The notes under the pieces are model-generated. The model was not told the origin of the DNA. It was given only the letters and a program-made list of their open reading frames with translations, and ran no database searches. From NCBI GenBank assembly GCA_003153415.1, contig PLYQ01000079.1:1-39503 (forward strand): a stretch of 39,503 bases of DNA. Reading direction: 5' to 3'. The translations under genes and the position numbers were made by a program. This stretch comes from Rhodospirillales bacterium. GTDB taxonomy: Bacteria; Pseudomonadota; Alphaproteobacteria; Reyranellales; Reyranellaceae. Positions 36,438-39,396 of this stretch are shown piece by piece. Position 1 is the first letter of the stretch; every line of letters begins with the position of its first letter.

Positions 36438-36668
36438 CTATTTCGTGTTGGGCGGATCAGCAGTTGCGTTGTTCAATGTCTTGCTTGCATCGCTGTCGGC
36501 GCGATCGATCAGTTTGAGGAGTTCGTCCGGCAGGGGTTCGCTCGCGATTTCGTCGTACATCGCATGCAACTGCTTCCGTAGCCACATGTCAAAGGGACGC
36601 TCGTTTGACGCCGTCGTCCGGACGGTCTCACCGGCCCGGTCGATGCTTGGTTTGTCGTCAGCAGTCAT
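36438..36668 (-). CDS. nepR: NepR-family anti-sigma factor
   Basis: MWLRKQLHAMYDEIASEPLPDELLKLIDRAD matches the NepR core (LRxxYdexxxEPlPdxlxxLL). Confidence 0.85.
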   Translation of the reverse strand: MTADDKPSIDRAGETVRTTASNERPFDMWLRKQLHAMYDEIASEPLPDELLKLIDRADSDASKTLNNATADPPNTK

Positions 36669-36784
36669 CGCGTTCTCCGCCGAGAACGAAGACGATTCCC
36701 CGAGACTCTGGCCAACGCACTATCTTCACTCCCCGAATTTTCCGACCACTATTTCTCACGTTTAAGCCATGCTTGAACAGTGGC

Positions 36785-37381
36785 TTATCCCACTAATTCG
36801 TCTGACTTTTCAGTTGGGGTAGCGGCCTGCGCAGAGAGTTTGCGCCCCACGCTGTCCGTCGGATGCTGCTTCACATCGTCATCGAGCAGCAGGCGTTCGA
36901 GCATGTCGCGCGCACGAGAAACGCGGCTCTTGACCGTGCCAATCGACACGCCGGTGCGCTTCGCGATGACGTCATACGGCAGGCCCTCGAGGACTGCGAG
37001 CAACAACGCCTCACGTTGTACAGACGCCAGCTTGCCGAATGCCATGACGAATTCGCGCATGATCAGGGCGGTGTCCTGCTGCGGCAGATGCGAGAGCGAC
37101 TCGGCGATCTTCGAGTCGACCGGAACGGTCGGACGCCGGCGCCGCAGGCTGGAGATGAATTCATTACGCTCGATGCAGAACAGCCATGCGCCCAGGTTCG
37201 TGCCGATTTGGAATCTATGGCGGTTTGTCAGCGCTTTGATCACCGTATCGTGGACGAGATCGTCCGCTACGTCGCGATCGCGGGTCAACGTCAGCGCATA
37301 GCAGCGAAGGCGCGGTAGGAGCGTCTTGAGCTCCTCGTGGAAATCACGGATGTCGCTGACGGTCGACGTTTGGATGTTCAT
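36785..37381 (-). CDS. ecfG: ECF sigma factor, EcfG-type (general stress response)
   Basis: LLPRLRCYALTLTRDRDVADDLVHDTVIKAL, TNLGAWLFCIERNEFISSLRRR, LPYDVIAKRTGVSIGTVKSRVSRARDML. Confidence 0.88.
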   Translation of the reverse strand: MNIQTSTVSDIRDFHEELKTLLPRLRCYALTLTRDRDVADDLVHDTVIKALTNRHRFQIGTNLGAWLFCIERNEFISSLRRRRPTVPVDSKIAESLSHLPQQDTALIMREFVMAFGKLASVQREALLLAVLEGLPYDVIAKRTGVSIGTVKSRVSRARDMLERLLLDDDVKQHPTDSVGRKLSAQAATPTEKSDELVG

Positions 37382-37504
37382 AGGTCTCTCCTGACAAAGC
37401 CCTGATGAGCTGATGAAATGCCGGGAGGGGAATTTGGTTACATTAGAAGGTGCATTTCTCTAAGTCGTTGAAATAAAAAAGCTATTTCCAGGATTTACTG
37501 CCCG

Positions 37505-37966
37505 CTACTGGAGTTTTTCAGCAAGCTGCTTGCGTGCCCGCGATACCCGCGCTTTCAGCGTGCCGACCGCGCAGCCACACAGCCCCGCCGCTTCCTCGTA
37601 GGAGAAGCCGCCGGCGCCAACAAGGACGAGCGCTTCGCGCATCTGCGGACTGAGCCGCCACAGCACCACCGACAATTCCTTCAGCGCCATCGTTGCCTCG
37701 GGATTGTCGACCGCAGCAAGCGGAGCGGCCGCGTCGAGCGGTATCAGCCGGCGCCTTTGCTTGCGCAGATCCGAATAGAAGCGGGTGCGCATGATGGTGA
37801 ACAGCCAAGCTTTGAGGTTCGTGCCGGGCGTGAACTGGCTTTGCTTGTCCAGCGCGGTGAGGATGGTGTTCTGCACGAGATCGTCGGCGGCCTCGCGTTC
37901 ACGGCACAAGAAACGTGCGAACGCGCGCAGGTCCGGAAGCATCGCCACGATGTCGTCCTTAATCAT
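37505..37966 (-). CDS. ECF sigma factor, second EcfG-like paralogue
   Basis: LPDLRAFARFLCREREAADDLVQNTILTALDKQSQFTPGTNLKAWLFTIMRTRFYSDLRKQRR, FSYEEAAGLCGCAVGTLKARVSRARKQL. Confidence 0.88.
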   Translation of the reverse strand: MIKDDIVAMLPDLRAFARFLCREREAADDLVQNTILTALDKQSQFTPGTNLKAWLFTIMRTRFYSDLRKQRRRLIPLDAAAPLAAVDNPEATMALKELSVVLWRLSPQMREALVLVGAGGFSYEEAAGLCGCAVGTLKARVSRARKQLAEKLQ

Positions 37967-38158: not shown

Positions 38159-38183
38159 GGAACCGGCCGTAGCAACCAACGTT
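38159..38183 (+). promoter_or_regulatory. Consensus EcfG promoter
   Basis: GGAAC-cggccgtagcaaccaa(16)-CGTT, 31 nt upstream of the small ORF start at 38215. Confidence 0.8.
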
Positions 38184-38214
38184 TTGCTCCGAGGCTTTTG
38201 AAAGGAGCAGCTCG

Positions 38215-38295
38215 ATGGCCGCTGCCCTGCTGTGGCTCTTCGCAATTCCAATCCTTGTGCTGCTGCTGCTATGGGGATTGGGTCTGCTGCATTGA
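38215..38295 (+). CDS. Small single-TM protein, 26 aa (absent from the ORF track)
   Basis: SD aaaggagc then ATG: MAAALLWLFAIPILVLLLLWGLGLLH*; directly downstream of consensus EcfG promoter. Confidence 0.65.
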   Translation: MAAALLWLFAIPILVLLLLWGLGLLH

Positions 38296-38324: not shown

Positions 38325-38546
38325 ATGTCGCTCAAGATCAATACGCCGCTAGCGGCGCTGATTGCCCTGGGACACCTGACGTCGGCTTGCGGCGAGCGGC
38401 CGATAGATCGCGCGCTAACCGGAGGCGCTATTGGCGCCGGCACCGGTGCGGTGGTCGGCTCGACGGTGGGTAACCCGATCGCTGGCGCGGTCATCGGCGG
38501 CGCTGCCGGTGCTACAATCGGTGCGGTGACGGCCCCGGAGAGGTAA
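38325..38546 (+). CDS. Small glycine-zipper lipoprotein
   Basis: SD gaaggag; MSLKINTPLAALIALGHLTSACGERPIDRALTGGAIGAGTGAVVGSTVGNPIAGAVIGGAAGATIGAVTAPER. Confidence 0.8.
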   Translation: MSLKINTPLAALIALGHLTSACGERPIDRALTGGAIGAGTGAVVGSTVGNPIAGAVIGGAAGATIGAVTAPER

Positions 38547-38595: not shown

Positions 38596-39396
38596 GTGTT
38601 GAACGGGTCGGAAACAAAGACGACGTCCGAGGCGATCGCCGGGACACTGCCGTTCCTCCGTCGTTATGCGAGGGCCGTCAGCGGATCCCAGAAGCGCGGC
38701 GACGAGTGGGTGCGCCTCTGTGCCGAGGTCGCCGTCGGCCAGCCCGAGCTGATCGCCGGTGCCGGAGACACAAAACATGGCGTATTCGCCCTGTTTCACC
38801 GCCTGCATCAGCCATTCGATAGCCTGGAGACGAACGGCACCGGGACGGACAGCGTCAGCGGTCGCCTGAAGGAATCGCTCCTGGAAATGGCGCCTCTGCA
38901 ACGCCAGGTACTGCTGCTGAGCGTGCTCGAGGGATTCACCATCGGTGAAGTAGCGCATATTCTCGACATCGACAGCGAAACCACCGAGCGCAGTCTCGCG
39001 GAAGCGCGTCGAGAGCTGCAGCGGGTCGCGGCCGTTCGCGTGCTGGTGATCGAAGATGAGGCGCTGGTCGCGCTCGACATCGCCAACACCGTCCGCGGCG
39101 CCGGCCATGAGGTTGTGGGCATCGCTGCGACGGAGAAATCGGCGGTCGAGCTCGCCAAGAAGCATTCGCCTCATCTCGTCCTGGCGGACGTTCAGCTCCG
39201 CGGTTCCGACAGCGGCATATCTGCCGTCAACGAGATCACGCGGACCATGACCGTTCCGGTGATCTTCGTTACCGCCTTTCCTGAACGACTGTTGACGGGC
39301 AAGGGGGTCGAGCCAGCATTCGTCATTTCGAAGCCGTTCGATTCTGAACTTCTTCGTGCAGCGATCGCCCAGGCCCTCCACACCGTCTCGCTCTGA
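38596..39396 (+). CDS. phyR: PhyR-type response regulator (sigma-like domain + receiver), GTG start
   Basis: N-terminal sigma-like LPFLRRYARAVSGSQKRGDEWVR, LEMAPLQRQVLLLSVLEGFTIGEVAHIL; receiver VRVLVIEDEALVALDIANTVRGAGHEVVG, LVLADVQLRGSDSGISAV, VIFVTAFPERLL. Confidence 0.95.
   Translation: MLNGSETKTTSEAIAGTLPFLRRYARAVSGSQKRGDEWVRLCAEVAVGQPELIAGAGDTKHGVFALFHRLHQPFDSLETNGTGTDSVSGRLKESLLEMAPLQRQVLLLSVLEGFTIGEVAHILDIDSETTERSLAEARRELQRVAAVRVLVIEDEALVALDIANTVRGAGHEVVGIAATEKSAVELAKKHSPHLVLADVQLRGSDSGISAVNEITRTMTVPVIFVTAFPERLLTGKGVEPAFVISKPFDSELLRAAIAQALHTVSL

Follow-up and report, generated by a model that had tools for sequence, protein, structure and literature searches.

Does the short open reading frame that separates the ecfG genes from phyR in a Reyranella-type genome encode a protein and, if so, what might that protein do in the general stress response (GSR)? 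The frame lies within the window (the whole stretch of DNA that was analyzed, 39,503 nucleotides) and its translation reads MAAALLWLFAIPILVLLLLWGLGLLH, followed by a stop codon. PhyR, two EcfG-like sigma factors and NepR are together the core genes of a GSR locus, and they flank the frame in the following arrangement.

36438-36668, minus strand: NepR anti-sigma factor (Pfam NepR, 33.9 bits, cut-off 25.7)
36785-37381, minus strand: EcfG-like ECF sigma factor, second copy (Pfam)
37505-37966, minus strand: EcfG-like ECF sigma factor, first copy, divergent from the microprotein (Pfam Sigma70_r2, Sigma70_r4_2 and PhyR_sigma2)
38159-38183, plus strand: sigma-EcfG-type promoter GGAAC-N17-GTT, GGAACCGGCCGTAGCAACCAACGTT (exact match, ATG 31 nt downstream)
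38201-38208, plus strand: Shine-Dalgarno sequence AAAGGAGC (from the sequence; GGAG to ATG, 7 nt)
38215-38295, plus strand: microprotein ORF of 26 codons, single transmembrane (TM) helix, LW-x-x-[GA]-x-P family (homology, coding constraint)
38325-38546, plus strand: glycine-zipper protein of 73 aa, probable lipoprotein (Pfam Gly-zipper_YMGG, E 1.5e-6, slightly under the cut-off)
38596-39396, plus strand: PhyR, response regulator and anti-anti-sigma factor (NCBIfam NF006623, 289.9 bits, cut-off 240)

The microprotein opens a compact run of ORFs on the plus strand and is followed by the glycine-zipper lipoprotein and then by phyR. The glycine-zipper gene starts 29 nt past the microprotein stop and its product has a lipobox-like cysteine. 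On the minus strand, the tandem EcfG-like sigma factors are about 39% identical, with NepR past the second, and this double arrangement (36438-37966) is kept throughout the genus. The window genome has two more PhyR paralogues on another contig (C167; L200, 1549-2316 on the plus strand and 7278-6514 on the minus strand), with 58% and 52% identity to the PhyR of the window. They lie in opposite orientations and one adjoins another EcfG-like sigma gene.

Conservation of the reading frame in Reyranella

The original prediction placed an unlisted 26-aa single-TM protein at 38215-38295, and this is confirmed by homologous ORFs at the same place in relatives, with a dN/dS of about 0.07. The window has 161 ATG ORFs of 19-35 aa on its two strands, and none but the microprotein ORF reaches TM-grade hydropathy (best 19-residue mean, 2.79); the product of this ORF is with high confidence predicted to be an inner-membrane protein with a single TM helix. 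A search of relatives gives MGRAALLWLLGVPIPVLLLMWALGWLH as the genus consensus of the same-place homologues. Nonsense or frameshift mutations in relatives had been named as evidence that would speak against the frame, and the genus was checked for them. Across the 51 genomes of the genus whose phyR is canonical (71% or more identity with that of the window), an intact microprotein adjoins phyR in about 33, the window included and one copy being cut by a contig edge; two loci carry broken copies (a frameshift in G029 and a stop at codon 8 in G049, locus L040), and none was detected at 16 of the canonical phyR loci. Because it is absent or broken at 18 of the 51 loci, the microprotein is dispensable. 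The glycine-zipper lipoprotein often lies between microprotein and phyR, as in the window. Several phyR loci lacking the microprotein keep the EcfG promoter, either alone or with the glycine-zipper gene after it, so that this gene sometimes stays with the promoter where the microprotein is gone. Beside the window, these two arrangements were noted among L210, L215, L216, L222, L226 and L228.

In a DNA alignment of 30 Reyranella loci, the -35 and -10 boxes and the ORF are conserved, conservation drops from 0.87 to 0.12 within 20 nt of the stop codon, and no conserved block is found outside the promoter and the ORF. The dN/dS is 0.069 in Reyranella, 0.063 for the Bradyrhizobium type and 0.091 for the MGRY type. 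Low dN/dS together with the collapse of conservation after the stop is the signature of a protein-coding sequence and not of an RNA or a leader, and on these grounds 38215-38295 is almost certainly a real protein-coding gene. A leader peptide or upstream ORF controlling phyR translation or transcription would suit the position 5′ of phyR on what is presumed to be the same transcript. It is scarcely credible, however, as it is the amino-acid sequence that is conserved, homologues occur alone or before unrelated genes, and no Rfam element is present (Rfam gave one sub-threshold and implausible match only). Size, hydrophobicity, a stress-type promoter and the one to three copies found per genome would also fit a type I toxin, that is, a small hydrophobic peptide that depolarizes the membrane and is curbed by an antisense RNA. 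This is very improbable given the lack of a conserved block beyond promoter and ORF, the distance of about 30 nt from promoter end to ATG with a strong Shine-Dalgarno sequence, and the absence of a sigma-70-like promoter nearby on either strand in a scan that covers the GC-rich promoters of the genus poorly.

The family motif and the divergence of the window copy

Homologues occur in Bradyrhizobium, Afipia, Mesorhizobium, Rhizobiaceae, Sphingobium and non-alphaproteobacteria, and share the core LW-x-x-G-[VI]-P-I-P in peptides of 24-28 residues. The tryptophan and the first proline are invariant, while the glycine is kept at 95% and the second proline at 86% (weighted). A scan of GTDB species genomes recovered 80 loci, in Reyranella, Bradyrhizobium, Afipia, Nitrobacter, Rhodopseudomonas, Mesorhizobium, Phyllobacterium, Ciceribacter, Sphingobium and other genera. 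The profile matches 57 of 387 evenly sampled alphaproteobacterial genomes at E 0.001. A reversed-profile control matches 1 of 271 genomes at E 0.01, which rules out an artefact of composition. Conservation along the peptide has no helical-face periodicity (p 0.74), although a classical one-sided packing surface should give one, and a conserved helical face was dropped as evidence of a packing interface.

The microprotein has no match in Pfam, NCBIfam, PHROGs or the PDB, and a literature search with sequence fragments did not find the peptide sequence in any paper, although it may sit in a large smORF catalogue without a described function. A search of plasmids for family members returned nothing. 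Three IMG/VR contigs (L241, L242, L243) encode a family microprotein, the viral origin of these genes being putative. At four loci of another alphaproteobacterial genus (L117, L119, L122, L133), the microprotein is followed by a conserved protein of about 115 aa without a known family, and an EcfG-type motif lies 117-127 nt upstream.

The window peptide keeps the invariant core of the family (W7 and the first proline, P12), and has alanine for the majority glycine before the proline pair and leucine for the second proline. Among the intact copies seen in the genus it diverges the most, having lost R3, G11, P15 and W25. With alanine and leucine in the motif and R3 and W25 gone, it is a diverged member of the family. 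It lies in the ecfG-phyR intergenic region, the position of the genus branch, and a genome search places it in the family with a full-length match to the A2 profile (E 1.9e-5); the window peptide is itself among the 25 rows of that profile, and independent support comes from the single-sequence search of relatives. The possibility that the window copy is decaying and no longer functional, in a family that is otherwise real, is unlikely. The lost residues, a mean pN to relatives of 0.19 against 0.08 for the group, and the loss or breakage of copies in other genomes are in its favor. On the other hand, frame, start, Shine-Dalgarno sequence and promoter are all intact, pN is still well under the pS of 0.66, and the PIL variant of the window peptide is shared with another locus (L127).

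EcfG promoter and link to the general stress response

A strong Shine-Dalgarno sequence and a consensus EcfG promoter 31 nt from the frame had both been predicted, and both are borne out (AAAGGAGC and 38159-38183, respectively), the fixed promoter distance being kept in relatives. The promoter is the sole GGAAC-N17-GTT match with such spacing in the 39.5 kb window, where 0.7 matches are expected by chance, so that the motif by itself is little proof. Across the family, 102 of 151 distinct copies have GGAAC-N15-18-GTT no more than 100 nt upstream, whereas the share among all ATGs of these loci is 2.3%; with a looser -10 box the values become 116 of 151 and 1.6%. As the copies are not phylogenetically independent, the p value computed for the stricter motif is too favorable, but the motif nonetheless recurs in many families. 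Its distances to the start codon cluster at 55-60 nt.

Peptide and PhyR also co-occur: 35 of the 387 alphaproteobacterial genomes have both (Fisher p 4e-17), the first PhyR search being an under-count as six candidates were scored per genome. Apparent absences of PhyR were re-tested with PF22029, which also matches EcfG-like sigma factors, and most of the apparently PhyR-negative genomes with the peptide carry an EcfG- or PhyR-like domain. Given the under-count and these PF22029 matches, PhyR-negative genomes were dropped as proof of GSR independence. A few genomes, mostly small, contain the peptide without a detectable PhyR or EcfG-like domain, which indicates that the family extends beyond the stress response. 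Membership of the general stress regulon, as originally proposed, is supported by the conserved frame, the Shine-Dalgarno sequence, the EcfG promoter and the linkage to phyR and ecfG in two lineages. Judged from these sequence features, the microprotein is very likely under EcfG control.

Candidate partners and known small membrane proteins

The family recurs in three settings: the GSR core locus, a glyoxalase/GST unit and an operon with TM4, a multi-TM protein of about 300 aa. The first is represented by the phyR locus of Reyranella. In Bradyrhizobium and Afipia (Xanthobacteraceae), an MGRY-type paralogue lies between a CHASE/HWE kinase (PhyK type) and ecfG-nepR-phyR. The EcfG-promoted unit of the second setting is found in Bradyrhizobium, flanked by a glyoxalase-family gene on one side and a glutathione-S-transferase-like gene on the other. 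TM4 adjoins the microprotein in an apparent operon at 24 of 161 distinct loci. The microprotein comes before TM4, with a gap of mostly 8-20 nt, in Rhizobiaceae/Rhizobiales and others, and after it in non-alphaproteobacteria and in some second copies of Reyranella. That the two genes are paired in either order, and in more than one class, is the strongest hint at a partner. TM4 (for example L171:1588-2502, L094:3088-4014 and L064:3088-3999) has no Pfam or NCBIfam match, and its predicted structure is of low confidence (mean pLDDT 49). Neither in the window nor at the Reyranella phyR loci that were inspected does a TM4 gene adjoin the microprotein. Elsewhere in the window genome, a TM4 homologue opens another contig (C55, L239), the sequence before it being unassembled. 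Many family copies stand alone, without a conserved neighbor.

We lean slightly toward an inner-membrane microprotein of the EcfG regulon whose proline-bent helix is accessory to a larger inner-membrane protein. Under stress, freed sigma-EcfG would allow the microprotein, the glycine-zipper lipoprotein and phyR to be transcribed together. The 26 residues would insert as one TM helix, bent at the conserved central proline motif. The helix would act by packing on a larger inner-membrane protein, not by catalysis, and would adjust the activity or stability of that protein under stress. The copy in the window genome is diverging, perhaps as its role is partly redundant or altered. A precedent is AcrZ-AcrB, where the small TM protein depends on its proline bend to bind its partner (PMC7267776). 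Action through a membrane partner is, taken by itself, an evenly balanced proposition; TM4 is the leading, though tentative, candidate for that partner and PhyK-type kinases are the second. The original suggestion that such a protein modulates kinases or transporters stays hypothetical, its best anchors being the phyK neighborhood in Xanthobacteraceae and the TM4 operons elsewhere.

The lack of helical periodicity weakens the partner model and keeps alive a bulk modulator of the membrane like Escherichia coli YohP, which would have no specific partner and would accumulate under stress to alter lipid composition, fluidity or membrane potential. For YohP (27 aa), a decrease in membrane potential and fluidity and a protective effect under stress have been reported (PMC12719787). 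Size and stress association are as in YohP, the absent helix face suits self-action better than a one-sided interface, and many copies have no conserved neighbor. Such a mode of action is nevertheless somewhat unlikely: the invariant tryptophan and proline, together with the narrowness of the motif, point to a specific contact, TM4 operons recur, and the profile does not match the YohP sequence used here (score -1.7).

By analogy with MgrB/SafA, the microprotein might instead bind a PhyK-type sensor kinase and tune PhyR phosphorylation as a feedback regulator of the pathway. In Reyranella it opens the phyR transcription unit, and the Bradyrhizobium/Afipia copy lies directly 3′ of the HWE/CHASE kinase, beside ecfG-nepR-phyR. 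Most copies, however, are far from any kinase, no kinase adjoins the window locus, and members exist in genomes without detectable PhyR or EcfG-like domains, making such feedback rather improbable. A broader version, in which the family would be a core and overlooked part of the alphaproteobacterial GSR that is EcfG-induced and closes a membrane feedback loop on PhyK-type kinases or activates TM4, is doubtful.

The family offers a directly testable subject: genetically tractable genera carry it (Bradyrhizobium, Afipia, Sphingobium, Mesorhizobium and Rhizobiaceae), its motif is defined and an operon partner recurs. Prodigal requires a gene to have at least 90 nt, and with 24-28 residues the family falls under this common gene-caller minimum and is thus hidden from gene lists. 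The microprotein thereby shows a systematic blind spot. Regulon lists made from annotated genes are unlikely to include it, and many general stress genes are without a known function.

Several known small membrane proteins invite comparison. YohP resembles the microprotein in length, in its single hydrophobic helix and in its association with stress, but lacks the LW-x-x-G-x-P motif, answers to another regulator and has no detectable profile similarity, as judged from the YohP sequence used here. E. coli AcrZ (49 aa) likewise has one TM helix, and proline is expected to bend that of the microprotein. AcrZ is larger, however, and tied to an RND pump, whereas genes for such pumps were not noticed beside the microprotein family; no homology is claimed. 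MgrB and SafA are small single-TM proteins that tune histidine kinases, and share with the microprotein their size, their single helix and their encoding in the regulon of the system possibly tuned. In contrast to both, the link of the microprotein to a kinase consists of gene adjacency only, in Xanthobacteraceae only. SEP6 of Sinorhizobium meliloti, with fewer than 30 aa and one TM helix, is conserved in Hyphomicrobiales and found in the membrane fraction by Western blot (PMC10117765). Compared by description only, SEP6 agrees with the Rhizobiaceae branch in length class, TM helix and taxonomic spread, and could be a translated homologue of the family. A sequence match would demonstrate that the family is translated and would take away some of its novelty.
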